IMG/VR virus record: IMGVR_UViG_3300046018_000239
Span: 1 to 63,997 of that record
From: a virus
DNA: 63,997 bases
Strand: one strand, 5' to 3'
In this document: positions 1,186 to 53,522 of the stretch, piece by piece
Layout: each line of letters starts with the position of its first letter
Position numbering within the stretch: position 1 is the first letter of the stretch
Program-made: the position numbers and the translations under genes
Notes under the pieces: model-generated
Told to the model about the DNA's origin: nothing
Seen by the model: the letters and a program-made list of their open reading frames with translations, nothing else
Database searches by the model: none

Positions 1186-1538
1186 TGGCCGGCCTCGACC
1201 AGGGCATCCTGTGCGGGGGCATCCGGCAGGGGCGGCCGCAGGACCGCGTAAGCCTCGGGGTCCCAGGCCGCGAGGTGCGCCTCCAGGTGTTCCCGGACCA
1301 GCAGCACCAGCGCCTTGCGCACCAGGTCCTGCCAGCGCGGCTCCGGCACCCAGCGCCGGTCCCCGCTGGTGTGCGGCTTTGCAAAGAAGCCCACCGACTG
1401 CCGCGTCACCAGCCCGTGGGCCTTGGTCGCCACCTGGAGGGGCGTGATGCCCCAGCGCGCCATTTCATCCCGCAGCGAGGTCCGCAGAGCCTTCAGCGAG
1501 TGGTCCTGCAGCGGGGTTATCGGCGGGGCTGGCGGCAA
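1182..1538 (-). CDS. Hypothetical protein, 118 aa, first gene of the leftward operon
   Basis: Helical, Leu/Arg-rich protein with no recognised family. The longest frame begins at TTG 1538 and I see no convincing ATG or GTG before residue 26 (MARWGI), so the start is uncertain. The stop overlaps the next start (GTGA). Residues 30-45 (ITPLQVATKAHGLV) could form part of a helix-turn-helix, but this is weak. It lies just downstream of a leftward promoter-like sequence at 1702-1730. Confidence 0.6.
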   Translation of the reverse strand: MPPAPPITPLQDHSLKALRTSLRDEMARWGITPLQVATKAHGLVTRQSVGFFAKPHTSGDRRWVPEPRWQDLVRKALVLLVREHLEAHLAAWDPEAYAVLRPPLPDAPAQDALVEAGQ

Positions 1539-1683
1539 GGCGGGCGCTCCTGGCGATGGCTCTCCCGCGCTGTGGTCCCGGCCGGCGACGGGGTGACAGG
1601 CCCAAGGGTGGGGCTCGCCGCCGAAGCTGGTGGGGTTTCCGGCTTCTCTGCCGGGACCATCGCGCTACGTGGTAATGGAGGAT

Positions 1684-1731
1684 GTTGACCACGCATTAGG
1701 AGGTAATCACGACAATGCGGCCCTTGTCAAC
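1684..1731 (-). promoter_or_regulatory. Leftward promoter-like site within a nested dyad
   Basis: On the minus strand a perfect TTGACA (1730-1725) is followed after 17-18 bases by ATTACC/TTACCT (1707-1701), a sigma70-like arrangement with a weak -10. The region is also a nested inverted repeat: GTTGAC (1684-1689) with GTCAAC (1726-1731), and CGCATT (1692-1697) with AATGCG (1714-1719). It sits between divergent genes starting at 1538 and 1782, so it may be a regulated promoter or operator. Confidence 0.4.
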
Positions 1732-1781
1732 ACCGCGCGAGTAGTGCCATCTTCCCGTCAGTTGGTAGGGACCATTCGCCC

Positions 1782-2399
1782 ATGGCAGGCGCCAAACGCC
1801 CCACGAAAGCGCCGCGCCCGGCGCCGCAGATCCGCATGTCATCCGCAGAATACCGGGACTTAATGGCGAAGGCAGCCGCCGAACCTCCCGCGGCTCGACA
1901 TAGCCAAGCGCCCCGAGTCAGCGCCGCGCCGACTGCGGGGCGGATGCCTCCAGGTGGTCCTGTAGGTTGCGGCGGCTTCGCCCCGATCGTCATCACCATC
2001 CCGGGCGAGATGCGGGGCAAGGGCCGCCCGCGGTTCTCGGTCCAAGGCGGCTTTGCCAAGGCCTACACCGACGCCAAGACGGCCAACATGGAGACCTGGG
2101 TGAAGGCTTGCGCCATCGGCTCCGCGCCGCCGGCTCCGCTGGATGGCCCCTTGGAACTGGCGGTGGACATCGTGGTGGCGGTGGCCCCGAGTTGGCCGAA
2201 GCGGCGCCGCGAGGACGCCCTGGCCGGCCAGATATTCCCCACGAACAAGCCCGACCTGGACAACTGCCTGAAGTTGGTCGCTGACGCGCTGAACGGCATC
2301 ATCTGGCAGGACGACAAGCAGCTGGTCCGCATGGTCGCCAGCAAGCGGTTCGGCCTGGCGCCGCAGACCGTGCTGACCATCAGCCGGGTGCCGGCATGA
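1782..2399 (+). CDS. rusA: RusA-family Holliday junction resolvase
   Basis: 205 aa endodeoxyribonuclease that resolves four-way junctions arising in phage recombination and replication. The C-terminal 140 residues carry RusA hallmarks: GKGRPR (79-84) near the start of the fold, KPDLDN (156-161), DAL (168-170) and the acidic pair at 177-178, matching the metal-binding aspartates of the family. The first 60 residues are Ala/Pro-rich and probably disordered, so initiation further in (Met19 or Met54) is possible. It is the first gene of the rightward early block and overlaps the next gene by ATGA. Resolving junctions before packaging fits the recombination genes encoded elsewhere in the window. 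Confidence 0.88.
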   Translation: MAGAKRPTKAPRPAPQIRMSSAEYRDLMAKAAAEPPAARHSQAPRVSAAPTAGRMPPGGPVGCGGFAPIVITIPGEMRGKGRPRFSVQGGFAKAYTDAKTANMETWVKACAIGSAPPAPLDGPLELAVDIVVAVAPSWPKRRREDALAGQIFPTNKPDLDNCLKLVADALNGIIWQDDKQLVRMVASKRFGLAPQTVLTISRVPA

Positions 2400-3187
2400 A
2401 GCAGGGCAGCGTCTGGATGCCGCTCTACATCGGCGACTACCTCGCAGACACCATGCACCTCGATGGCGCTGCGCACGGAGCCTATCTGCTAATGCTTATG
2501 CATTGCTGGCGCATGGGCCCGCTACCCGATGATGACCGCCAGTTGGCCATCATCGCCCGAACAGCCCCAGACACCTGGCGGGATGAGGTTGGGCCGGTTG
2601 TCCGGCGGTTCTTCACGGCCACCGACGCTGGCTTGATCCAAAAGCGCCTTGAAGAAGAACGGGTTGCGGCAACCGAGAACGCTGACCGCAAGACCACGGC
2701 GGGGCGGAAGGGCGCCGAAGCGCGATGGCAGAGGCATAGCGACCGCATAGCGACCGCAGAGCGGGACCAATGCCCGTCACCTTCACCTTCACCTATAGAG
2801 GGTACTACCTCTCCATCTAGCGATGGAGAGGTAGAGGCAGCCGGCCCGCCGGCCGCCCCTCTCGCCCGCCAGAAGCCCGAGATCGGCGACGCGCTGCTGT
2901 GGGACCTCTGCGGCGCATGGAACGAGGTGGTCGCCAACGCGGGGCTGCCCCAGGTCAAGGATCTGACCCTCAAGCGGAAGACCGCGCTGCGCGCCCGGAT
3001 CAAGGAGCGGTGGCAGCAGGACCCGGTGCGGCAGTTCCGCGCCTATGCCCGCCGCATCGCCACCTCGCCCTTCCTGACCGGCGGGAATGACCGCGGCTGG
3101 CGCGCTGACTTCGATTGGGCGCTGAAGCCCGACAACGTGCTGAAGGTCGCCGAGGGCAAGTTCCATCCCGAGCAGGAGGTGGCGTAG
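2396..3187 (+). CDS. DUF1376 (YdaU-like) protein, probable replication accessory
   Basis: 263 aa. The N-terminal ~90 residues (WMPLYIGDYLADT, then a hydrophobic helix with HGAYLLMLMHCW) are the typical DUF1376 start found in phage replication modules. A basic region with TAGRKGAEARWQ follows, and a linker leads to a C-terminal helical part rich in Lys/Arg. These proteins commonly sit beside primases or helicase loaders. Here the gene lies immediately upstream of the primase-helicase, with the stop TAG directly followed by its GTG start, so a role in replication initiation or helicase loading is inferred. No catalytic motif is visible. Confidence 0.82.
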   Translation: MKQGSVWMPLYIGDYLADTMHLDGAAHGAYLLMLMHCWRMGPLPDDDRQLAIIARTAPDTWRDEVGPVVRRFFTATDAGLIQKRLEEERVAATENADRKTTAGRKGAEARWQRHSDRIATAERDQCPSPSPSPIEGTTSPSSDGEVEAAGPPAAPLARQKPEIGDALLWDLCGAWNEVVANAGLPQVKDLTLKRKTALRARIKERWQQDPVRQFRAYARRIATSPFLTGGNDRGWRADFDWALKPDNVLKVAEGKFHPEQEVA

Positions 3188-6953: not shown

Positions 6954-7271
6954 TCAGCCCTCCATGCGGCTGGTGTGCAGCAGCTTGCGGACGGTGGCGG
7001 CGTGGTCGTCAACCGCGTCGATCTTGGAGTAGGCTCGCGCCGGGAGGCTGGCAGCGTAGGCGGCAACTGCCGCTGTGTGGATCGCGTACTGGTCGGCGGT
7101 CAGGCCGATCATGTCCAGCTTGCCGTTGGCGCCCTTGATGCCGGTGTTGACCACCCACTTGAGCGCGCTGCCGGCCGGCGGCGGCACCAGAGATGCCTGC
7201 TTGCCGTTGACGTAGATGGCGCGGCCATTGGTGGTCATAGTGTAGGGGCCGACTTGGCGAATGGTCTGCAT
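6954..7271 (-). CDS. Hypothetical protein, 105 aa
   Basis: Start chosen at ATG 7271, about 50 bases downstream of a good leftward promoter; a longer frame to 7349 would begin inside the promoter. The N-terminal half looks like a small beta sheet (YTMTTNGRAIYVNGKQ), the C-terminal half is an Ala-rich helix. First gene of the four-gene leftward block. Unknown function. Confidence 0.62.
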   Translation of the reverse strand: MQTIRQVGPYTMTTNGRAIYVNGKQASLVPPPAGSALKWVVNTGIKGANGKLDMIGLTADQYAIHTAAVAAYAASLPARAYSKIDAVDDHAATVRKLLHTSRMEG

Positions 7272-7370: not shown

Positions 7371-7958
7371 GTGTCAGTGGACGTAGCCTACATCAACCGC
7401 TCCCGAGGCGGCCCGGCCGAGGAAGACCAGCGCGCGGCGTGCGTGGCGGCCGGCGTCGATCCTGCCGACCCGGATGCCTGGTACGTCGAGCCGCCAGCCA
7501 AGCGGAACCGGCCGGCGACGTTCGTGGAGCGCGGGTTTGCTATTCAGGCGCTGCACCCCGGCGACAGGCTGGTGGTGCATTCGGCGCCGAGGCTCGGGGC
7601 CACAGAGGCGGAAATCCGCGCCGCTGCGGCTGCCGTCGCGGCGCAGGGCGCCAGCATCTACGACTGCGAGGCGGCGGCCGAGGTGCGGTTCCACCCTGAT
7701 GCCGGGAGGCTGCTGGCCTGGGCTGCCGCTGGCGCCAAGCTGGCCGCGGCAGAGAGGGCAGGGACGGCGCGCCGGGCCATCATCAACCGCGGCGCCCCGC
7801 CGAAGGCGCTGGTGGGCGACAAGCTGGTCGAGGCCCGCCGGCTCCTGAAGGAAACCGATCTAAGCGTGGCGGCCATCGCCAAGGCCGTAGGCGTGTCGGA
7901 TCGCACGCTCTACCGGGCCATGAAGCAAGGCATTCTGCGGAAGCGAGGTGACAGATGA
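7371..7958 (+). CDS. Resolvase-like protein with C-terminal HTH
   Basis: About 195 aa from GTG 7371 (GTG 7377 is equally possible; an ATG at 7323 lies inside the opposing promoter). The N-terminal ~105 residues follow the serine-recombinase plan: AYINRS near the start, where the catalytic serine would sit, then GDRLVVHSAPRLG, then a strand after AAQGASIYD. The C-terminus ends with a clear helix-turn-helix of the Hin/resolvase type (LVEARRLLKETDLSVAAIAK, then VSDRTLYRAM). Several conserved arginines are not evident, so it may be a divergent recombinase or a regulator derived from one. It heads a rightward run of small genes. Confidence 0.66.
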   Translation: MSVDVAYINRSRGGPAEEDQRAACVAAGVDPADPDAWYVEPPAKRNRPATFVERGFAIQALHPGDRLVVHSAPRLGATEAEIRAAAAAVAAQGASIYDCEAAAEVRFHPDAGRLLAWAAAGAKLAAAERAGTARRAIINRGAPPKALVGDKLVEARRLLKETDLSVAAIAKAVGVSDRTLYRAMKQGILRKRGDR

Positions 7959-40861: not shown

Positions 40862-41442
40862 GTGGAGCGGACCCTTGGGCCGACTTCGAGCCGGTGCAGG
40901 GCGGCCCGGCTGGAATGACCTCGCTTGCCCCTGCTCAGGAAGCAGCTTTCCGCGGGACTTGGGCACCTGAAGTGGCCCGCCTTCAGGGCCGCTCAATCGG
41001 CGATCTGATGCGCGACCAGCAGGACTACGACCTGCGTGCCGCATACCGAGCCGGCGCCATGCCGGATGCGGATGGGCACCTCACTGATCTCGGCAAGCTG
41101 CCCAACCATCCGACCTTCTCGGAGGGCTCGGTCTATTCGACCCCAGCGCAGCGCGGTGGCCGGTGGATGGAAGATGGGCGAGGCAACGACCTGTTCTCCC
41201 CAGCGCCGACGAACCTGCGGCACCGCAGCTTGCCGGAGATGCGGCAATATTTCCGCGAGCGCGAACGGCCTGGCGCGCGGGTGCTGACCCCGCGAGGCGT
41301 GACCCCAATTCAGGGATGGGACGAGCCCGCTGCTATCCCGCCGGCCACTGTCCCCCGGCTCATGGGGGAAGACCCACGCCAAGGCCTGGCGTCCGTGACG
41401 GCGCAGCCCGCGCCTCCTCCGATACCCGAGGGCCAACCATGA
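40858..41442 (+). CDS. Hypothetical protein with WADFEPV tag, 194 aa
   Basis: ATGA overlaps at both ends. The N-terminus (MSGADPWADFEPVQ) shares a WA[GD]FEPV tag with the giant protein encoded next, implying common targeting, such as incorporation into the head. The body is helical and basic, with a LTDLGKLPNHPTF segment. The C-terminus is Pro-rich. Function unknown but clearly part of the ejection-protein set. Confidence 0.6.
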   Translation: MSGADPWADFEPVQGGPAGMTSLAPAQEAAFRGTWAPEVARLQGRSIGDLMRDQQDYDLRAAYRAGAMPDADGHLTDLGKLPNHPTFSEGSVYSTPAQRGGRWMEDGRGNDLFSPAPTNLRHRSLPEMRQYFRERERPGARVLTPRGVTPIQGWDEPAAIPPATVPRLMGEDPRQGLASVTAQPAPPPIPEGQP

Positions 41443-44400
41443 CGAACCTCGCTTCTGACGATTGGGCTGGCTTTGAGCCAGTGGCCGCTGACGAGTGGGC
41501 TGGCTTTGAGGCGGCCCCGGCCGTTCCGCCACGCCAGGCCGAACCGCGCAGCCCCACCGAGCCCCCGATCGTGGCCGGGCAACCCTTCTGGCGCCCCGGT
41601 GCTGCCGAAGCTCCCCGCGCGCTGGAGGCGGTATCTGCCGCGCCCCCGCCAGCGCAGGCGGCATCCCCACCTCCGCCGCCCGCAGGCCCGCCGGCCCCGC
41701 GCATGGGCAACCCCGGCGCCCGCATGGCGCGGCCCATCGAAGGGTTCGACGAACCTGCGCCGCTGCCCGGCCCCCAGCCGCTCATGCAGGAAGTGCCGAT
41801 GGAGTTGTTCCCCGGCAGCCCGCGGAATCTGCGGCCGGCGGGGCAGCGGGTGGATACCCTCAACTTCACGGACCCGCAGGGCCGCGTCACCAGCACGGTG
41901 CGCCAGCCGGTGCCCGACGACATGGCGACGCCGCGCCCGCCGCCGGAGTTCCCGGACCCGCAGGAATACACGCGCCCGCAGCAGCGCGACTACGCCAGCC
42001 TGACGCCAGGCCAGCGCGCCGGGGACCAGCTGCGCAGCGGCGTGGAGACGCTGAAGCAGGGCATCGACAGCATGGGGCTGGGCGGCATCTACGGCCAGTT
42101 GCAGCAGATCGACCGGGCCGACCAAGCCGCGGCGAGCGGTACGCCTCTGGCAAGCCCGCGCCGCATGGAGGCGGCGGCCGGCGGCGGCATGGACGCGCTC
42201 TCCCCGCAGCAGCGCGCCATCATGCGCGAGCGGCTGGAGGCCGAGGCCGGCCAGAAGCTGACCAGCATCATCACCTCCTCCAACCGGCAGGCGCTGCTTG
42301 CCAGCAACCCGGCCGCGCGTGCCATCACCGAAGCCGGCAACGAAGGCCGCTGGCGCGACGCCTGGCGCATCTTCCTGACGGACCCGGGCGGAATCATCCA
42401 GCAGTTCGCCGTCGAGAGCGCGCCCCTATCGGCGCCGATGATCGTCGGCGGCTTGGCGGCTGGCCTTGTCGGCGGCCCCGTCCTCGGCGCGCTGACCGCG
42501 TTCGGCGGCAGCTACGGGACCGAGTTCGGCCCCGGCCAGGTGCAGGCCATCCTGGAGGCGCTACGGGCCCGTGGGGTGGACGTGACCGACGAGCGGGCCG
42601 TGGCCGGATTCCTCCGCACGGACCCGCAGATTGCCATCGACGCAGCCAGCGAGGCCGGGCGTGCCGCGCTTGGCCCGGCCGCCTTCGACGCCATGGGCAT
42701 GGGCGCGGCCGGCGGCCTCCGGCGCGGCGCGGGCTTCCTGCGGAATGCCGGGGTCGTGGGGCGGAATACCGGCCTTGAACTGGCGGGCGAGCCGGCTGGT
42801 GCCGCGCTGGGCCAGATCCTCGGCGGCGGCAGCATCGACAAGCCGGGCGATCTGATCGGCGAGTTCCTCGGCGCCGGGCCGCAGGTCGTCGGCAGCACGG
42901 CCTACGGCACGCTGATGGAGATGCGGCAGCCTTCACCCCTGGCCGGCGTGACGGCACAGCAGCCGCAGGACCAGACCACCACGGCGCCCAACCCGGGCAT
43001 GCCGGCAGACCCCCAGGCGCCTCCTCCGGCAGCCGGGGTGCCTCCGTCCCAGGTGCAGCCTACGCAGGACGTCCCGCCTGCCGCGCCTGGGGCGGGGGCT
43101 GCTGTCCCCCCCGCTGGGCCAGCGCCTCCTCCGGTCCACGTCAACCCCGGCGCCCCGGACCTGGAGGCGGACCTTCAGGACCCGCGCCCGGCCGAGCAGA
43201 TCGAGGCGGAGAAGGAGGCAGCCGCACAGGCTGCCCTCCAGCAGGCCCAGGCCGCGCTTCCCCGCGGCTGGACGGTGGAGCGCCAGGACGGCGACTTCCT
43301 GCTGTTGGACCCGCACGGCAACGAGGCTGGGGCGCTGAACCGCGCTCCCGATGCCGAGGCGGTAGAAGGCTGGCGGCGGCTGGCAGAGCAGGCCAACGCG
43401 ACGGGGGTCTATAACGACGCCATCCGCGACGGCGACGGCACGAAGGCCGCGCCGGTGCAGGCCGTGCGCCCGGGTGACGTGGACCATGCTGCCGGCCAAG
43501 CCAACCCCGCGCCGACGCCAGCCCAGGCCGAGGCAGGGAACTACGCCAAGGGGCATGTCCGACTGCATGGCTTGGACATCGCCATCGAGACGCGGAAGGG
43601 CGAGACGCGCACCGGAGTTGGGGCTGATGGGCGCCCGTGGTCCGTCCAGATGCCGGCCCACTATGGCGAGGTGAAGGGCACGGTCGGCAGCGACGGCGAC
43701 GCGGTGGACGTGTACCTCGGCCACGACGCCGAGAACCCGAACGGCACGGTCTATGTCATCGACCAGGTGGATGCCGACACCGGCAAGTTCGACGAGCATA
43801 AGGCCATCATCGGCGCCGGCTCGCTGGCTGAGGCGCAGCGCCTGTACCACGCCGCGTTCAACGATGGCCGCGGCCCGGATCGCATGGGCGCGGTGCTGCC
43901 GCTGACCCTGCCGGAGTTCAAGGCCTGGCTGGCGAGCGGCAAGACGAAGCAGCCGCTGAACCCGGCGCAGATCTCCAAGGGCATCCGCGACCGGCGCGCT
44001 GCGGCCGCCCAGCAGCAGAAGGCCGAGGCTGACGCGAAGGCGGCCCAGGCGGCGGAGGAGAAGGCCCGGAAGGATGCCGAGGGGCAGAAGGTCAAGGCCG
44101 AGGCTGACAAGCGCGCCGACGCGGCCAAGCAGTACCAGCGCGTCCGCAGCCTGATCCACAAGCTGCGTGAAGCGGGCATGACGGACTATGCCAAGAGCCT
44201 GGCCGAGATGGTCCAGAACAACCGCAAGCAGGGCGTGCCGCCGGGCGCCGCCGGCGTGGACGAACTGGAGGCTTCGGTCACGCGGACCATTGCCCAGCAC
44301 ATCGAGAAGCAGGAGGCCGAGCGCGTCCGCAAGCTGGCCGAGCAGAAGCGCCGGCAGGACCTGGAGGCGGAACAGAAAAAGGCCAAGGAGGAGGCCGCGG

Positions 44401-47400
44401 CCCCCGAGGGAGAAAAAGGGGAGAAGAAAGGGGAGAAAACTGCCGCCCCCAAGCCGGAGCCTGTGGCGCCAGCGGTCGATCCAGAACCGTCGCCTGCGCC
44501 CGCCCCGGCCGGCCCTAAGCTGCTAGTGTCCGACGACCGCATGGCGGAACTGAAAGCCAAGCTGAAGGCCAAGATGCAGGGCCAGTTGAACGCTGGCCTG
44601 GACCCCGAGATGATCGCCCTCGGCGCGGAACTGGCGGTTGGCTACCTGGAGCGCGGCACCCGCCGGTTCGCCGCTTGGTCCGCACAAGTTGTTTCGGACC
44701 TCGGGGAAGAAGTGCGCCCTTTCCTCCGGGCATGGTACGAGAGCGCCCGCTACTACCCCGGGTTCGACAATGCCGGCATGACGCCGGCCGCGCAGATCGA
44801 CAGCGGGGAACCCGAAGGAGACGACAATGCTGACGGACAGGGAGGTTCTGACGCTTCAGGCGGAGGCACGGCGCCGGCGGCGGGACCCGCAGTTGATCCA
44901 GAACCTGGAAATGCACAGCCGGATCCTGAAGTCGTGGGAGACGGAGCGCCCGGCGATGTGGGCGCGGCTCCAGACGCAGAACCTGTCGGAGACGATGGCC
45001 TTCCTGGCGCAACAGCGGATGTGGGAGGAACGGGACCGGCTGGTGGAAGCGGGAATGCCGATAACGGACGCCCGCGAGGAGGCCGAGCGCAACCATCTTC
45101 TGCTGGGGCCGGAAGCGGAAACGGAGGAAACGGCGCCGCCGACGGAGGAACTGGAGGAAGCGGTGCAGGAAGTGCCGGAGGTGTAGCCACCCCGAGCCCG
45201 GCGGGCCCTTCCGCCGGCGACTTCCACATTGATGACCCCGCGGCCTACCTGGGCGGCGGGCCGGTCGCGCGGTTCAACCGCAACCGCGCCGCGATCGAGA
45301 CGCTGAACGCCGTCCGGGACAGCGACCGCCCTGCCACCCGCGAGGAGCAGGAGAAGTTGGCCGGCTATACCGGCTGGGGTTCCTTCGGCCAGGACCTGTT
45401 CAAAGGTTCATGGCAGAACCCCAATCCTCGGCCCGGTTGGGAGGAGCGCGACCGCTGGCTACGCGCGCACCTGGGCCGCCCGGCCTGGGAATCAGCCCAG
45501 GCCAGCATCCTCAACGCCCACTACACGGACCCGCCCGTGGTGCTGGCCATGTGGGACATGGTGCGCCGCGCCGGCTTCGAGGGTGGCAGGGTACTGGAGC
45601 CGTCCATGGGCACCGGCAACTTCTTCTCCCTCATGCCGCAGGACTTGAAGGCCCGCAGCGACCTGACGGGAATCGAGTTGGACACGACCACGGCGGAAAT
45701 CTCCAAGCTGCTGTTCCCGGACTCCAACGTGCGGCAGATGCCGTATCAGGACAGCCGCACCCCGGACGGCTTCTATGACGTGGTGATCGGCAATTGGCCC
45801 TTCGCCGGTCAGACCGTCGCCGACCGCCGCCACGGCAAGATGAAGCCGACGCTGCATGACTTCTTCTTCCTGAAGGCGCTGGACCAGGCGCGCGCCGGCG
45901 GCCTTGTCATCGGCATCACCAGCCACGGCACCATGGACAAGGAGGGCACGCGGGTACGCGCGCACCTGGCGCGCAACGCGGAACTTGTGGCGGCCATCCG
46001 CCTGCCGACCGGCGCGTTCGAAGGCTACGCCGGGACTGCGGTGGTCACGGACATCGTGGTGCTGAAGAAGCGGGCGACCCCACTGCTGGAAACTCCGGAC
46101 GAAGCCTGGGTAAAGGCGAGTATGGTGCCGACGCCGGCCGGCCCGGAGGTGCGCCTGAACGAATACTTCCGGCAGAATCCGGAGCGCGTGCTGGGCACCG
46201 TCAACTTCGGCAGCGGCACGACGCAAGGCTCGGCTGGGCTGATCGTGGATCGGCCCGACAACCTGATGGAGAAGCTGACCGCTGCGGTCGAGGCGATCCC
46301 CGAAGGCGCCTATGAGCGCGAGCGCGCCAACGACCACATCACCTACATCACCAACCACACCGCCGACCGCGAGGGCGCCCTGGTGTTCCAGGGCGATGAG
46401 GCGTTCGTCGTGCGCGGCGAGCAGCTTGCCCCGGCCCACCAGGTCGCCAAGTTCCTGGTGAAGTCGGCGAAGGAGAACGCATCGCGGTTGCAGCAGCTGC
46501 GCGACCTGGTGGCCATGCGCCGCGCCTACGCCGAACTCATCACGAAAGAGCGCGCCGGCCAAGATGCCGAAGCGGAGCGCACCACGCTGCGCCAGCAGTT
46601 CGAGGCATTCACCAAGGCGAATGGCCCGCTGAACAAGTCGTTCGGCCTGGCCTACTTGAGCAAGATCGACGACCCGTTCTACCCGGCGCTGGCGGCGCTG
46701 ATGACGAAGGACGGCAAGCCGGCGGCGATCCTGTCGCGCTCGACGATGCGCGCGAAGCCGAAGCTGGAGAACCCCAGCATCGCCGACGCCTTCGTGTTGG
46801 CCCGGCAGCAGAGCATCCGGCCGACGCTGGCCGAGATCGCGGCGCTGACCGGCAAGCCGGCAGACGAGGTGAAGGCCGGGCTAATCAAGTCCGGCGCGGT
46901 GTTCGAGACGGTGGACGGGGACGTGGAACCGTCCGACCTGTACCTGTCCGGAAATGTCCGGGTGAAGCTACGCCAGGCGCAGGCGGCGGTCGCCGAGGGC
47001 CAGAAGCACCTCCAGCGGAACGTGGACGCGCTGAAAGAGGTGCAGCCCAAGGACGTGCCCTACTACGACATCGAGGTGCAGCTTGGCGCGACCTGGGTGC
47101 CGGAGGACGTGTACGAGGATTACGTCGCGCACATGCTGAACCGGCCCAACACCGAGGGCATCAACATCCGGTTCACGCTGGGGCGGTGGAAGGCGCGGTT
47201 GACCGGGCTGAACAACCTCTCCGCGGCCCGCAGTGGCTTCGGCATGGATGACCGGCGCGTGCCGTTCTCCCGCCTCCTCCAGGCGGCAATGTCCAACCAG
47301 ACCTTCAAGGTCATGGCGAAGGACGACAAGGGGACCGAATACGTGGACCCCAAGCCGACCAAGCAGGCGGCCGACCGCATCGCCAATATCCGGGCATCCT

Positions 47401-50400
47401 TCGGGGAGTGGCTGTGGAAGGATGCCGAGCGCCGGGTCGCCCTGGAGCAGTCCTACAACGAGACGCGCAACGCCCATGCCACGCCGAAGTACGATGGCAG
47501 CTTCATGGCCTTCGAAGGCATGGCGCTGTCGCTCGGCCGCGGCGAGTTCCAGCTGCGCCAGCACCAGGTCAATGCCATCTGGCGCGCGGTGGTGAACCGG
47601 AAGTCGATCAACGCCCATGAGGTGGGCACCGGCAAGACGTTCACCATGGGCGGCATCGCCGTCGAGAGCCGGCGCTACGGCATCGCCAAGAAGCCCCTGA
47701 TCCTGGCCCACAACGCCAACAGCAAGGCGGTGTCGAGCGAGATCCAGGCCATGTATCCGGCGGCCAAGGTCCTCTACATCGACAACCTCGCCCCGTCCGA
47801 GGTGGAGGTGCAGCTTCGGCGCATCGCCAACGACGATTGGGATGCGATCGTGGTCCCCCACTCGCAGATCGACCGTTTCGCGCTCTCGAAAGAGACGCTG
47901 ATGGAGATCGCCAAGGAGGAGATCGAGGCGCTGGAGCAGGCTGCCATCGAGGCGGCCAAGGAAGACGGAAGCAGCGTCGATGTGGACGACATGGACGCCA
48001 TTCGCGCCGGCGACAAGAAGGCCTCCGGGCGGCTCCGCTCGCCCACGGCGAAGGACCTGGTGCGCGCCCGCAACTCGGTCCTGAACAAGATCGACGCCCT
48101 GGCCATCCGTGCCAGCCGCGACAAGGCGGTGCAGTTCGAGAACCTGGGGATCGACATGATCCTGGTTGACGAGGCGCATGAGTTCAAGAAGCCGCCCATC
48201 GTCACCGGCATGAAGATGAAGGGGCTGCAGACGCAGACCTCGGATATGTCGATCGCGCTGAACTTCCTGACCAGCTACGTGCGGCGGCAGAACAACGGCA
48301 ACGGCATCCACACCTTCACCGGCACGCCGATTACCAACACGCTGGTCGAGATCTTCCACCAGATGCGGTACGTCATGCTGGAGGAAATGAAGGCCGCCGG
48401 CGTCGATACCTGGGATGCTTGGTTCGGTAGCTTCTCCCGAGAGGTGCAGGACGTGGAGTTGTCCGCGGCCGGCGAGTATGAGCCGATCACGCGCCTCGCC
48501 GCCTTCATCAACGTGCCGGAACTGCGCCGCCTGGTGGGCCAGTACCTGGACGTGGTGTTCGGCGACGACATGCCGGAGATGCAGCCGCGCCGCACCGAGA
48601 GCGGCAAGACGATGGCCTCGCCCGACCTGACCGAGGCGGAGCGCGTCGAACTGGAGAACGGCCGCACCGAGAACGCCGGCGACCGGCCTTACAAGAAGGT
48701 GGTCAACGTCACCTCGGAAATGACGGACGAGCAGGTCGCCCTGTTCGAGCAGTTCCAGCAGGACTCGCGCACCTTCCGCAACGCCAAGGGGAAGGAGCGC
48801 CGGCGCCTGATGGCAATCGGCGACCCGTCCAGCCCGGTCATCGTGGAGGGCGGCGCCAACCTCGCCAGCTTCGACGAGCGGATGTATGACCGCGACCGGC
48901 TCCGCGACAACCCGCTGCACGGCCAGGAAGGCACCGCCCCCCTGGACCCGCGGAGCAAGGTCGCCCAGGTCGTGAAGAACGTGACGGAGATCTACAACTC
49001 CGACCCGCGCGCCAATCAGGTCATCTTCGCCGACCAGGGCTACAACAGCACTTCCGAGCGCGCGATACCTGAGACGGACCCGAAGCAGACCAAGCGGGTC
49101 AAGACTTTCTCCGCCATCAAGGACCTGGTGGAGCGTCTGGTGGCGTCGGGCATCCCGCGCGAGCAAATCGCCCTGGTGACGGGCGGGGCCAGCGCGGAAA
49201 AGAAGTTCGAGATCTCCGAGGCCATGAACGAGGGGCGGCTCCGCGTCGTCATCGGCCTGTCCAGCACGCTTGGTGTGGGCGTGAACATGCAGCGCAACCT
49301 CCGCGCCATGCACCACATGGACGCCCCCTACATGCCGGGCGACCTGGAGCAGCGGAACGGGCGCGGCTGGCGCCAGGGCAACCAGTGGAACACGGTGCTG
49401 GAGTACCGCTACATCACCGATCGGCTAGACGGCCGGCGCTGGCAGATCCTGGCAGTCAAGCAGCGGTTCATCCTCTCGTTCATGAAGGACAACAACGCCG
49501 CCAGCCGCATCATCGAGGGCGAGGCGGCGGCTGACGCTCCGTCCGACTTCCTGGAAAGCTTCGCCGAGGCGGCGGGCGACCCGCGCGCCCTGACCCGGGA
49601 GCAGATGAAGCGGAAGCTGGAAGGGCTGAACCAGGCCGAGCGCATGCACGGCCAGGCGGTGGCCGACTCCAAGAAGATGCTCGCGGACCAGTTGACCGAG
49701 AAGAAGCGCATCGCCGATTGGCTGACCGACGCCGAGAAGGAAGGCGGCCCGGTCGGGGCCGTGGCCGAGTTCGTCGAGCGCACGAAGGGCGACGCCTTTG
49801 AGGCGGTGATCGGCGGGAAAAAGGCGACGACCCGGGCCGAGGCGACCGACGCCGTGAAGGCGCTGACCGCTGACATGCGGCAGGGCGATTCCCAGCGCCC
49901 CGCGGGCCAGATTGCCGATGCGAAGATCACGATGGCCTGGCCGCGCCTGGGGTCCACGCCGGAGATTGCCATCAAGCTGGGCGGCTGGGACTTCTTCGGG
50001 ACCAGCATCGCCAGCCTGGAATCGCAGATCCGCAACTTCCTGAAGGTGCCGGCCACGCGCCGGCAGCAGGCCAGCGAGATCGAGGCGAACATCGAACGCC
50101 TGCGTGAGGTGGTTGCCGCGCCGTTCAGCCGGGCCAAGCAGTTGAAGGCGGCCAAGCAGACGCTGGAGGACCTGGAGGCGGACCTGACCGCCAACCCGGT
50201 CGCCCCGCCCGGCTGGCTCCGCATCGGCACGCCGCGGGAAAGCACGGTGTTCTGGCAGGGCAAGCCCTTCACCGTGACCGGCCACCGCTGGAACAAGGAC
50301 GGATGGTTCGTCCTGGCCGAAGATGACCGCGGCGGCGTCGTCATCCCCTACACCGAGGCGACGGACCAGCAGGGCATCCCCGCCTATGAGGAGCGGCCGT

Positions 50401-53400
50401 TCACGTCGCCGGTGGTGGTGGACCCGAAGGCGGCCGGCGCCCAGGGCGGCACCACCGTCAACTCCGGCCTGCCGTTCAGTCCCGAGAACTTCCGCCGCTT
50501 CATGCTGGAGCCGGCCCAGGCTGGCATCCGCGCCGCGACCGAGGCCTTCCAGCGGGTGCTGGACCGGGTGGTGGAGGCGGTGATGAACCGCCAGCGCCCG
50601 GTGCCCGGCAACATCGTCGTGGCCGACAAGGCGCGGGCGGACACGCTGACGCCGTTCCTGTCGCGGCTGCGGCTGCCCAACCGCATGTTCCGGCGCTGGC
50701 CGGCCCTGGCGTCGCTGGTGGACCAGGGCATCAAGGCCGAGGAGCATATGTCCATCTGGACGAAGCGCCTGGCGGCCAAGCTGGACAACCTGCTGGGCTC
50801 GCTGAAGCGCGGCCGCGGCGACCGCGAGAAGGTCATGGCGGCGCTGCTCGACGCCGATGCCAACGAGGTGGACATTGAGAAGGGCGACGTGGCGGATGCC
50901 CATTGGGCGGCGCACGGGCTGAACGCGGCCGAGGCTTCGGCGGCGGCCGGGCTGAACCGGCTGCTGGTGGAGGTGGCCCGCTTGGTGGACCAGCACCGGC
51001 GGGCCATGCTGCCCAAGGTGGTCGAGGCCAAGGCGACCGTGTGGCGCCAGATGAAGGCGCTGATGGACAGCGCCAGCGTGGCGGGCCCGCAGTACCAGCA
51101 GGCCTACCGCCGCCGGTCCTACCTCAACCGGCGCATCCGCGAGGGCAAGGGCGACCTGGCGGCGCACGCGGCCGAGATCCGGCAGATCAACGACGACCTG
51201 CGGGCCATGCGCGCCAGCGACCCCAGCATCCAGGACAGGCTGGACGACCTGCGCGAGCAGTACGACGCCCTGGAGGCGCGGCTGCAGGCGACCAGCGTGC
51301 GGACCCGGAAGGGCTACTTCCCCCACAAGTTCTTCGGCAGCTGGAGGCTGTACGAAATCACGAAGGAGAAGGACCCCGACACGGGCGAGCCTGTCCGCCG
51401 CGAGATCACCAGCGATCAGGGGTTCTACGACACCCAGGGCGAGGCGATCGCCGCGGCCGAGGCGTTCCTGAAGGAGAACCCTGGCGCGTCGCTGCGGGTA
51501 GAGCCCAAGGTGACGGTGTTCCCGGGCAACTCCGGCGGAGCGGTCCTGTCCGATGCGGCCTTCGGCAAGCTGACCCGGCAGTTGCAGAAGCAGGCCGGGC
51601 TTGAGGGCGAGGCGCTGGCCGAGGCGCTGAAGGGCGTGGCCAAGCGCCAGAGCCGCCGGCGCGTCTTCAGCCCCAGCCTCCAGCGGAAGGGCGCCGAGGG
51701 CTTCGCCGAGGACCTGGAGCGGGTGATGCGGACCCACATCGCCCAGGCGGTGCGGTACGTGGAACTGGACAAGCTGAAGTGGGCCTACGTCTCCACCATG
51801 GAGCGGCTGGGCCTGTCGGCGGCTGACCCCCGCAAGGTGGAGCGCAGCGGCCAGCAAGAGGTGCAGCGCACCATGGCCGCCTGGTTCCGCGACGTGAACG
51901 GGACCAAGCAGCCTGGCGAGAGCCAGCTTGACGCCGCGATCCAGCGCGCGGGCATCCCCCGGGCGACGCTGGTTGCCTTCGGCGGCATGAGCATGTTCGC
52001 CGGCCTGGTCGGCGCCCCCATCATCAGCCTGCCGGTGGGCGCCTATTTCGCGCTGCGGACGGCCAATGCCCTGAAGAAGGGCGGCGACTTCCCCACCCGG
52101 ACGATCGTCGGCGACATCGCCAGCGACTTTGCCATCCTGAAGTTGGGCGTGCTGAACATCGCCTCGGCGGTGGTCAACCTGACGCAGACGGTGGTGAACA
52201 CCTACCCGGTCCTCGGCGAGAAGTGGACCGCCATCGGCATGAAGCGCGCCTCCGCGGCCTTGTGGTCGCAGGCCCGGAACGCCGCGACGCCTGGCCGCAT
52301 GTCCACCGATGCCATCCTCCTCCAGCGCGCGGACATTGCCAGCCGGTTCAACCTGCAGAGCGAGAACCCGGTGCTGGCCCACAACAAGGACCTGGTGGAC
52401 CGGGTGCGCGGCTGGTTCATGCTGCCCTTTGAATCCGTCGAGCGGTTCAACCGGGCGACGGCGTTCCTCGGCGCCTATGCCAGGGCCGAGGACCAGGGCC
52501 TGTCGCCGGCGCGGGCGACCCAGGCAGCGCAAGACGTGCTTCGCCGCACGCAGTTCCACCAGGGCAACGCCACCCGGCCGGAGATCCTGCGCGACCAGCT
52601 GCTGCGGCTGCCGGCGCAGTTCAAGAACTTCATGGCGCAGCAGATCGGCTTCGTCGTCGGGCTGGAGGGCAAGGAGATCGGCCGCTTCCTGGTCGGCGTG
52701 CTGCTGGTGGCCGGGCTCCTCGGCTTCCCCGGGCTCCAGTTGCTGGACTGGCTGGTGCTGGCCTTCACCGGCGTCAGCGCCATCGGCGAACTGCGCAATG
52801 CGATCCTGACGAGCGGCGCGGCCGGCGAGTTGGCCGGGACCTTCATCGACGCCCTCGGCCGAGGGTTGCCGGCGCTGCTGGGCACCGACATTTCCAGCCG
52901 CGTCGGTGTCGGCGCCGGGTTCCTCCCGGACAGCGGCAGCGACTTCTCCGGCCCGCTGACCGGCACCATCCGGTCCCTCTCCCAGGTGGCGCAGGGGCAT
53001 GGCGGCCTGGCCGACTACCTCACGGCCCTCGGTCCCTTCGGCAACCCGCTGAAGGCGATGGAGGCGGCGGCGAACGGCGCCAGCGCCACCTCCTCCAGGT
53101 TCTGGACCGGCGGCGTGATCGGCGACGGCGAGAGCCGAATGACCAACCCGCGGAAGCGGTCGGAGACGGAGTACCGCCCCACCAACGGCGAACTCGTCCG
53201 GTACGGCCTCGGCTTCCGGCCCCTCAGCCAGTCCCTCCAGGCGGACCAGCGCGCGGTCCAGGCGCGGGAGACGAAGGAGCGCACGGACAAGCAGAACCGG
53301 GCGCTGGCGGCCTACGTGCAGGCCCGGTGGGATGGCGCCCCGCAGGAGAGGCTGGTGGAACTGGCCAACGCCGCGCGCCGGGCCGGCGTCACGCAGCGCC

Positions 53401-53522
53401 GCATCGTGGACACGGTGCGGGACAGCGAGCGGACCCGGGCGGAGCGGGATCTGCGCCGCGCGCCGAAGGAACTGCGGCCGGGGGTGCGGGAGCGCCAGCA
53501 GGCGATCGAGGCGCGGGAGTGA
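41439..53522 (+). CDS. Giant polyvalent protein: pyrophosphatase-like, methyltransferase and SNF2-helicase domains, 4027 aa
   Basis: ATG 41439 overlaps the previous stop (ATGA). Two WAGFE tags (W9, W20) open the protein. Further domains: hydrophobic segment (about 334-352); inorganic-pyrophosphatase-like polyvalent domain (about 700-835); coiled coil (about 850-990); Gly/Pro linker (about 1130-1250) overprinted by another gene; class I methyltransferase with EPSMGTGN (1387-1394) and motif IV NWPF (1452-1455, instead of NPPF); SNF2-type helicase with GTGKT (2063-2067), DEAH (2244-2247) and QRNGRGWRQG (from 2638); two C-terminal hydrophobic segments (about 3514-3538 and 3749-3776). Comparable DarB-like polyvalent proteins travel in the virion and protect incoming DNA from restriction; that role is inferred. 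Last gene of the late operon. Confidence 0.85.
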   Translation: MTNLASDDWAGFEPVAADEWAGFEAAPAVPPRQAEPRSPTEPPIVAGQPFWRPGAAEAPRALEAVSAAPPPAQAASPPPPPAGPPAPRMGNPGARMARPIEGFDEPAPLPGPQPLMQEVPMELFPGSPRNLRPAGQRVDTLNFTDPQGRVTSTVRQPVPDDMATPRPPPEFPDPQEYTRPQQRDYASLTPGQRAGDQLRSGVETLKQGIDSMGLGGIYGQLQQIDRADQAAASGTPLASPRRMEAAAGGGMDALSPQQRAIMRERLEAEAGQKLTSIITSSNRQALLASNPAARAITEAGNEGRWRDAWRIFLTDPGGIIQQFAVESAPLSAPMIVGGLAAGLVGGPVLGALTAFGGSYGTEFGPGQVQAILEALRARGVDVTDERAVAGFLRTDPQIAIDAASEAGRAALGPAAFDAMGMGAAGGLRRGAGFLRNAGVVGRNTGLELAGEPAGAALGQILGGGSIDKPGDLIGEFLGAGPQVVGSTAYGTLMEMRQPSPLAGVTAQQPQDQTTTAPNPGMPADPQAPPPAAGVPPSQVQPTQDVPPAAPGAGAAVPPAGPAPPPVHVNPGAPDLEADLQDPRPAEQIEAEKEAAAQAALQQAQAALPRGWTVERQDGDFLLLDPHGNEAGALNRAPDAEAVEGWRRLAEQANATGVYNDAIRDGDGTKAAPVQAVRPGDVDHAAGQANPAPTPAQAEAGNYAKGHVRLHGLDIAIETRKGETRTGVGADGRPWSVQMPAHYGEVKGTVGSDGDAVDVYLGHDAENPNGTVYVIDQVDADTGKFDEHKAIIGAGSLAEAQRLYHAAFNDGRGPDRMGAVLPLTLPEFKAWLASGKTKQPLNPAQISKGIRDRRAAAAQQQKAEADAKAAQAAEEKARKDAEGQKVKAEADKRADAAKQYQRVRSLIHKLREAGMTDYAKSLAEMVQNNRKQGVPPGAAGVDELEASVTRTIAQHIEKQEAERVRKLAEQKRRQDLEAEQKKAKEEAAAPEGEKGEKKGEKTAAPKPEPVAPAVDPEPSPAPAPAGPKLLVSDDRMAELKAKLKAKMQGQLNAGLDPEMIALGAELAVGYLERGTRRFAAWSAQVVSDLGEEVRPFLRAWYESARYYPGFDNAGMTPAAQIDSGEPEGDDNADGQGGSDASGGGTAPAAGPAVDPEPGNAQPDPEVVGDGAPGDVGAAPDAEPVGDDGLPGATADVGGTGPAGGSGNADNGRPRGGRAQPSSAGAGSGNGGNGAADGGTGGSGAGSAGGVATPSPAGPSAGDFHIDDPAAYLGGGPVARFNRNRAAIETLNAVRDSDRPATREEQEKLAGYTGWGSFGQDLFKGSWQNPNPRPGWEERDRWLRAHLGRPAWESAQASILNAHYTDPPVVLAMWDMVRRAGFEGGRVLEPSMGTGNFFSLMPQDLKARSDLTGIELDTTTAEISKLLFPDSNVRQMPYQDSRTPDGFYDVVIGNWPFAGQTVADRRHGKMKPTLHDFFFLKALDQARAGGLVIGITSHGTMDKEGTRVRAHLARNAELVAAIRLPTGAFEGYAGTAVVTDIVVLKKRATPLLETPDEAWVKASMVPTPAGPEVRLNEYFRQNPERVLGTVNFGSGTTQGSAGLIVDRPDNLMEKLTAAVEAIPEGAYERERANDHITYITNHTADREGALVFQGDEAFVVRGEQLAPAHQVAKFLVKSAKENASRLQQLRDLVAMRRAYAELITKERAGQDAEAERTTLRQQFEAFTKANGPLNKSFGLAYLSKIDDPFYPALAALMTKDGKPAAILSRSTMRAKPKLENPSIADAFVLARQQSIRPTLAEIAALTGKPADEVKAGLIKSGAVFETVDGDVEPSDLYLSGNVRVKLRQAQAAVAEGQKHLQRNVDALKEVQPKDVPYYDIEVQLGATWVPEDVYEDYVAHMLNRPNTEGINIRFTLGRWKARLTGLNNLSAARSGFGMDDRRVPFSRLLQAAMSNQTFKVMAKDDKGTEYVDPKPTKQAADRIANIRASFGEWLWKDAERRVALEQSYNETRNAHATPKYDGSFMAFEGMALSLGRGEFQLRQHQVNAIWRAVVNRKSINAHEVGTGKTFTMGGIAVESRRYGIAKKPLILAHNANSKAVSSEIQAMYPAAKVLYIDNLAPSEVEVQLRRIANDDWDAIVVPHSQIDRFALSKETLMEIAKEEIEALEQAAIEAAKEDGSSVDVDDMDAIRAGDKKASGRLRSPTAKDLVRARNSVLNKIDALAIRASRDKAVQFENLGIDMILVDEAHEFKKPPIVTGMKMKGLQTQTSDMSIALNFLTSYVRRQNNGNGIHTFTGTPITNTLVEIFHQMRYVMLEEMKAAGVDTWDAWFGSFSREVQDVELSAAGEYEPITRLAAFINVPELRRLVGQYLDVVFGDDMPEMQPRRTESGKTMASPDLTEAERVELENGRTENAGDRPYKKVVNVTSEMTDEQVALFEQFQQDSRTFRNAKGKERRRLMAIGDPSSPVIVEGGANLASFDERMYDRDRLRDNPLHGQEGTAPLDPRSKVAQVVKNVTEIYNSDPRANQVIFADQGYNSTSERAIPETDPKQTKRVKTFSAIKDLVERLVASGIPREQIALVTGGASAEKKFEISEAMNEGRLRVVIGLSSTLGVGVNMQRNLRAMHHMDAPYMPGDLEQRNGRGWRQGNQWNTVLEYRYITDRLDGRRWQILAVKQRFILSFMKDNNAASRIIEGEAAADAPSDFLESFAEAAGDPRALTREQMKRKLEGLNQAERMHGQAVADSKKMLADQLTEKKRIADWLTDAEKEGGPVGAVAEFVERTKGDAFEAVIGGKKATTRAEATDAVKALTADMRQGDSQRPAGQIADAKITMAWPRLGSTPEIAIKLGGWDFFGTSIASLESQIRNFLKVPATRRQQASEIEANIERLREVVAAPFSRAKQLKAAKQTLEDLEADLTANPVAPPGWLRIGTPRESTVFWQGKPFTVTGHRWNKDGWFVLAEDDRGGVVIPYTEATDQQGIPAYEERPFTSPVVVDPKAAGAQGGTTVNSGLPFSPENFRRFMLEPAQAGIRAATEAFQRVLDRVVEAVMNRQRPVPGNIVVADKARADTLTPFLSRLRLPNRMFRRWPALASLVDQGIKAEEHMSIWTKRLAAKLDNLLGSLKRGRGDREKVMAALLDADANEVDIEKGDVADAHWAAHGLNAAEASAAAGLNRLLVEVARLVDQHRRAMLPKVVEAKATVWRQMKALMDSASVAGPQYQQAYRRRSYLNRRIREGKGDLAAHAAEIRQINDDLRAMRASDPSIQDRLDDLREQYDALEARLQATSVRTRKGYFPHKFFGSWRLYEITKEKDPDTGEPVRREITSDQGFYDTQGEAIAAAEAFLKENPGASLRVEPKVTVFPGNSGGAVLSDAAFGKLTRQLQKQAGLEGEALAEALKGVAKRQSRRRVFSPSLQRKGAEGFAEDLERVMRTHIAQAVRYVELDKLKWAYVSTMERLGLSAADPRKVERSGQQEVQRTMAAWFRDVNGTKQPGESQLDAAIQRAGIPRATLVAFGGMSMFAGLVGAPIISLPVGAYFALRTANALKKGGDFPTRTIVGDIASDFAILKLGVLNIASAVVNLTQTVVNTYPVLGEKWTAIGMKRASAALWSQARNAATPGRMSTDAILLQRADIASRFNLQSENPVLAHNKDLVDRVRGWFMLPFESVERFNRATAFLGAYARAEDQGLSPARATQAAQDVLRRTQFHQGNATRPEILRDQLLRLPAQFKNFMAQQIGFVVGLEGKEIGRFLVGVLLVAGLLGFPGLQLLDWLVLAFTGVSAIGELRNAILTSGAAGELAGTFIDALGRGLPALLGTDISSRVGVGAGFLPDSGSDFSGPLTGTIRSLSQVAQGHGGLADYLTALGPFGNPLKAMEAAANGASATSSRFWTGGVIGDGESRMTNPRKRSETEYRPTNGELVRYGLGFRPLSQSLQADQRAVQARETKERTDKQNRALAAYVQARWDGAPQERLVELANAARRAGVTQRRIVDTVRDSERTRAERDLRRAPKELRPGVRERQQAIEARE
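44827..45186 (+). CDS. Overprinted small gene nested in the giant gene, 119 aa
   Basis: In the +1 frame of the giant gene. ATG 44827 is preceded by AGGAG with good spacing. The product is a well-formed helical protein (LTDREVLTLQAEARRRRRDP, SRILKSWETERPAMWARLQ, GMPITDAREEAERNHLLLG) with an acidic tail. Its third codon positions are almost all G or C, whereas over the same bases the giant frame has many A/T third positions and encodes low-complexity Gly/Asp/Pro. So the coding signal switches frame here. Either a truly embedded gene or a former separate gene engulfed when flanking genes fused. Confidence 0.7.
   Translation: MLTDREVLTLQAEARRRRRDPQLIQNLEMHSRILKSWETERPAMWARLQTQNLSETMAFLAQQRMWEERDRLVEAGMPITDAREEAERNHLLLGPEAETEETAPPTEELEEAVQEVPEV

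Follow-up and report, generated by a model that had tools for sequence, protein, structure and literature searches.

Organization of the locus

The window analyzed herein is the whole of the virus record IMGVR_UViG_3300046018_000239 (63,997 bases), in which a giant open reading frame (ORF) comes after phage packaging and tail genes, namely those for the terminase large subunit, portal, head closure and tail fibre. This polyvalent, DarB-like gene (41439..53522, + strand) likely starts at the ATG at 41439, as judged from the overlap with the end of the upstream ORF at 41442 and from third-position GC content (GC3), the frame itself being open from 41163. It encodes an InPase domain (PF18823; 43521..43931, + strand, residues 787-923, E = 4e-44), a conserved helical domain (44580..44795, + strand, residues ~1140-1211) and, further downstream, a block made up of LPD36, an N6-adenine methyltransferase and an SNF2 helicase (45219..50420, + strand, residues ~1353-3086), which matches the DarB-like phrog_10089. 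LPD36 was assigned by means of the GWGS motif described in PMC5512222, and the domain order of the block agrees with that paper. With LPD36, the methyltransferase, SNF2 and other effector domains in a single chain, the giant is of the same kind as the DarB-like proteins that include phage P1 DarB and Bcep22 gp75 (Iyer et al. 2017). P1 DarB shields injected DNA against type I restriction (PMC5512222), and the giant of the related phage JC1 (gp69) is a virion protein represented by 51 unique peptides (PMC9144972).

Directly downstream of the helical domain, a second ORF on the + strand (44827..45186) is read in the +1 frame relative to the giant and encodes 119 residues, with five predicted helices and an acidic, disordered tail. 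A Shine-Dalgarno motif, AAGGAG (44815..44820, + strand), lies 6 nt upstream of its ATG; a search at this start for a promoter, a terminator or an unusual RNA fold found none. The giant frame reads the same DNA (44829..45183, + strand) as a stop-free, unconserved linker rich in Gly, Ala, Pro and Asp (38 G, 22 A, 13 P and 12 D among 118 residues), in which 9% of the residues are hydrophobic, as against 29% downstream. Over the nested ORF only, the GC3 of the giant frame drops from ~0.9 to 0.45, while that of the +1 frame climbs to 0.92. The sequence-only reading of this DNA had described a helical 119-residue +1 protein with its own AGGAG site within a Gly/Asp/Pro low-complexity stretch of the giant, a helical domain before it and methyltransferase and helicase domains after it, together with a change in codon bias between the frames. 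All of this was borne out, the change, measured as GC3 by frame, lying exactly at 44827-45186 and LPD36 preceding the methylase and helicase on the downstream side.

Conservation of the nested ORF and selection on the two frames

Homologs of the nested protein, at 73 to 41% identity, were found in phage records, viral contigs and bacterial genomes, spanning divergent phages and prophages, and the small ORF occupies the +1 frame of each intact giant that was found. A profile built from the first 22 brought up distant homologs at the corresponding position in Microcystis phage Mwe-JY07, Itty13, SopranoGao, POI1126, PEp14, VvAW1 and Atu_ph08, and tblastn with the VvAW1 small protein gave matches in 21 phage records and none in plasmids. 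Nesting in +1 was also seen in 72 of 73 further viral loci, the exception (L090) having the appearance of a decayed, rearranged copy. Taking the initial, the profile-found and the 73 further loci together, with some near-duplicates among them and two Skermanella loci left out, the small ORF lies in the +1 frame of a DarB-like giant, immediately ahead of or close to the LPD36-methyltransferase-SNF2 block, in 98 of 99 phage or viral loci; the helical domain is found upstream of it in 72 of 100 loci. When the family profile was run over 398 Pseudomonadota genomes, the sole match was the Skermanella genome that had served as a sampling centre. Distances among the small proteins and among the methylase blocks are correlated at r = 0.94 over 82 loci (permuted maximum 0.16), so the nesting is not recent, and the arrangement is ancient and common to nearly all relatives found.

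Wherever the annotation under a match was listed, the nested gene was absent from it, and the giant, an antisense ORF or nothing was given instead. The record of Pseudomonas phage Itty13 (L032, MW460249.1), in which long antisense ORFs are annotated opposite the DarB-like giant, appears to have missed the giant gene as well. In the 8P, Y7 and BcepIL02 lineages the corresponding position holds a +1 ORF that shows little or no similarity to the family; those of phage 8P (L044, 7642-7914) and phage Y7 (L037, 4465-4761), in which the GC3 switch is present and similarity is undetectable, are either very diverged or replaced. The nested gene does not always lie directly before LPD36, since an extra conserved giant-frame domain is found between the two in Atu_ph08 (L040, ~7440-7940) and PBC5 (L035, ~7450-7950).

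While the window has a high GC content, for which reason ORF length alone was rejected as evidence for a nested gene, the substitution patterns of the two frames are distinct. Between the window and its closest relative (L001), the small frame has a dN/dS of 0.21, as against 2.8 for the giant frame. Pairwise values among homologs range from 0.09 to 0.57 in the small frame, and at the same nucleotides they are mostly 1-3 in the giant frame, values of 0.56-0.96 being confined to closely related pairs in which changes are few; thus the amino acids of the giant show no conservation in this stretch. This is the reverse of the pattern that the sequence-only reading had set against its own proposal, namely a +1 dN/dS near 1 beside a conserved giant linker. 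The changes per site at giant codon positions 1, 2 and 3, again between the window and L001, are 0.38, 0.19 and 0.11 inside the nested ORF and ~0.08, 0.04 and 0.34 downstream of it; hence the periodicity of substitution rotates at the borders of the nested ORF, within which the wobble position is that of the small frame.

The giant frame is nevertheless free of stops in all of the loci counted, 30 of phages and 13 of TnpV, the family discussed below, while the alternative +2 frame contains 3-19 stops and has them in every counted locus. When the small protein was recoded with the codon usage of the giant, the probability of an open giant frame was at most 0.002 in each of the AT-richer loci L003, L027, L037 and L038 and at most 0.017 in each of the TnpV loci; the product over all phages, 5e-41, is overstated, the lineages being related. 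With the small frame constrained and the giant frame kept stop-free, selection maintains both frames, one for its protein and the other for its openness, and these comparative sequence data strongly support 44827-45186 as a real, conserved gene nested in the giant. An open frame arising by chance in GC-rich DNA is a practically negligible explanation that conservation refutes: long spurious ORFs are indeed common in the window (245 of at least 100 residues), but the nested ORF is conserved also in AT-richer genomes (42-54% GC; L027, L038 and L003), with dN/dS well below 1 and an enriched Shine-Dalgarno signal.

That signal also bears on how the small frame is entered. A Shine-Dalgarno match of at least four bases precedes 93% of 82 distinct nested starts, compared with 14% of random ATGs. 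The small frame is open upstream of its ATG in many loci, often for tens of codons (median 28), and the small domain lies in frame behind upstream domains in PBC5 and in the same frame as the helical domain in a Skermanella locus (L021), as might be expected if ribosomes shifted by +1 out of the giant frame and made a shortened giant ending in the small domain. We regard such frameshifting as very improbable, given that both the start and its Shine-Dalgarno motif are conserved and that RNA structure at the window site is no more than chance. Moreover, the nested start follows an in-frame stop by just 1-2 codons in 11 loci, which argues that this start is internal and leaves hardly any room for a shift out of the giant frame.

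Relationship to TnpV and origin of the nesting

Over the aligned members of the small family, the best Pfam family is TnpV (PF14198), at E = 4e-4 and below the family cut-off. PF14198 matches the nested ORF of five phage records (E from 1.5e-5 to 0.0035), the best of them at ~21 bits as against the curated cut-off of 27 bits, and does not match the window protein itself. In profile comparisons by hhalign, a Lastavirus-type phage set aligns with TnpV at E = 5e-4 and a score of 27.5, as against 17.8 for the best of 60 column-shuffled controls, and the window's subgroup is linked to that set at E = 1.3e-9; the window's 22-sequence group alone aligns with TnpV at E = 0.13. The Lessievirus copies link to both the phage set and TnpV (E = 0.0014 and 1.8e-4, respectively). 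The AlphaFold2 model of the window protein has five helices and a disordered tail (mean pLDDT 82), and helix order and lengths are alike in the predicted structures of the window protein (27-40, 42-50 and 54-74) and of TnpV (28-40, 42-51 and 54-80). A Foldseek search of the PDB with the nested-protein model (P0001) gave no match, and a sequence search of the PDB gave just one weak match, to a designed repeat protein. Both the window-protein and the TnpV models picked the BFVD entry Q8W6J4_2 (probabilities 1.00 and 0.90), which very probably is the second half of orf33 of phage PBC5, small domain included, 1093 being half of 2185. The small domain also forms the C-terminal end of phrog_938, which is as long as PBC5 orf33 with its in-frame small domain and whose endolysin label does not fit that domain.

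Judged by profile and predicted helix layout, the nested protein is a probable homolog of TnpV, a protein of ~115 residues from Tn4451 and its relatives. TnpV differs in having an extra N-terminal beta hairpin and a conserved C-terminal W..MN..AEE, both absent in P0001, and in occurring as a standalone gene as well, and the window protein scores under the Pfam cut-off. The likeness extends to genomic context, since the Bacillota elements that carry TnpV share the +1 nesting in a polyvalent methylase-helicase gene. As predicted from the Pfam lead, TnpV is nested in +1 in 3 of 3 gut-element contigs tested that have a methylase-helicase gene, and the TnpV loci that contain such a polyvalent gene are nested in +1 with the same GC3 switch in 14 of 14 cases. 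The Firmicutes domain upstream of TnpV and the helical domain of the phages are unrelated by profile. In one of the TnpV loci (L041) an upstream polyvalent ORF contains the nested copy, and a distinct ORF encodes the methylase. Standalone TnpV copies adjoin tet(O) or recombinase genes in places where there is no giant, and hence the protein is able to act without one. Six faecal contigs filed as phages (MT83xxxx 'Bacteriophage sp.'; L041-L043 and L065-L067) look like the plasmid loci of Bacillota in which TnpV is nested in a polyvalent gene, and they probably represent conjugative or mobilisable elements.

A Skermanella aerolata genome without a detectable methylase giant has two copies of the small family. 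One stands alone (L026, 10007-10303), and the other, at the end of a contig, forms an in-frame fusion with the helical domain (L021, 6763-7464). Together with the constraint on the small frame, these standalone and in-frame forms favour, without proving, an older gene that would have been trapped when the giant was read through it. The alternative, that the small gene arose by overprinting inside an existing linker of the giant, has in its favour that nested genes of viruses usually originate in this way, that the linker is a tolerant position and that the phase is always +1. We consider it quite unlikely, since the family has standalone and in-frame forms and the giant-frame sequence seems to be a side effect of coding in the small frame, and since the stops in the +2 frame of every counted locus mean that composition alone can explain the fixed phase. 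The sequence-only reading had proposed a fusion of two genes by readthrough across an intervening gene that stayed functional. Such a history fits the constrained small frame, the merely open giant frame and the standalone and fused copies, although it was no event of this phage. The comparison with relatives that it suggested likewise succeeded in part, with standalone small genes (Skermanella and TnpV) and a separate methylase ORF (L041), but three cleanly separate genes in that order were present in none of the relatives found.

Sinorhizobium phage PBC5 (L035, AF448724.1, ~7080-7130) might be taken for a split ancestor, as its orf33 continues in frame into the small domain and its methylase frame is a separate ORF that overlaps orf33. 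We rejected it as such evidence because the split is explained by a 1-nt indel relative to Atu_ph08, located between the helical and small domains, which may be a sequencing error.

Proposed function and comparison with known systems

We propose double decoding of the giant gene's mRNA. Ribosomes beginning at the giant's own start would make a protein of ~4,000 residues in which 44827-45186 supplies only a flexible linker, while others would initiate internally, at the Shine-Dalgarno motif and ATG in +1, and produce a separate helical TnpV-like protein of 100-130 residues. Selection retains the amino acids of the small protein and just keeps the giant frame free of stops. The constant linkage to the LPD36-methyltransferase-SNF2 module suggests that the small protein serves this module, and it may be a dedicated partner of an antirestriction or transfer machine, co-produced from one message and acting, for instance, in assembly, loading or DNA docking. 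Taken as a whole, double decoding with a TnpV-like protein as the dedicated partner of the methylase-helicase module seems to us a likely account of the sequence data. The wider proposal, that most phage and many Bacillota LPD36-methyltransferase-SNF2 genes encode a giant plus a hidden TnpV-like +1 subunit as an overlooked second component, has in our estimation an even chance of being correct.

The main competing view of function is that the nested protein is a trans-acting DNA-binding regulator or excisionase-like factor that is functionally unrelated to the giant and was merely trapped in it. TnpV of Tn4451 has been postulated to act in excision, as it resembles lambda Xis (PMC3158075), which is the sole published idea on TnpV that we found, and its standalone copies occur without the giant. 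This role is, however, merely postulated for TnpV itself, the nested gene lies in the late virion module of annotated phages, adjoining structural and lysis genes, and its co-inheritance with the methylase block (r = 0.94) is close, such that an unrelated regulator appears unlikely, and we prefer the dedicated partner.

In the openly readable literature we found no paper that describes the nesting. The main text of PMC5512222 is without the terms overlap, frameshift and TnpV, and for the DarB-like proteins (Iyer et al. 2017) no annotation that we saw lists the nested gene. DarB-like giants rank with the largest proteins of phages and are candidates for injected antirestriction factors. If each giant has a small hidden partner, studies of the giant alone may fail for want of that partner, and existing virion proteomics can be re-searched for the small protein. 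TnpV would also gain a recurring genomic home, and the locus would offer a clear natural example of an overlap in which one frame is functional and the other a spacer.

Small genes that lie wholly within another gene, in a shifted frame and with their own start, are known from Rz1 in Rz of phage lambda and from E in D of phiX174. The pair in the window differs from Rz1/Rz and E/D in that one of its frames is an unconstrained linker of a giant gene and, unlike them, it probably recurs both in phages and in the mobile elements of Bacillota.
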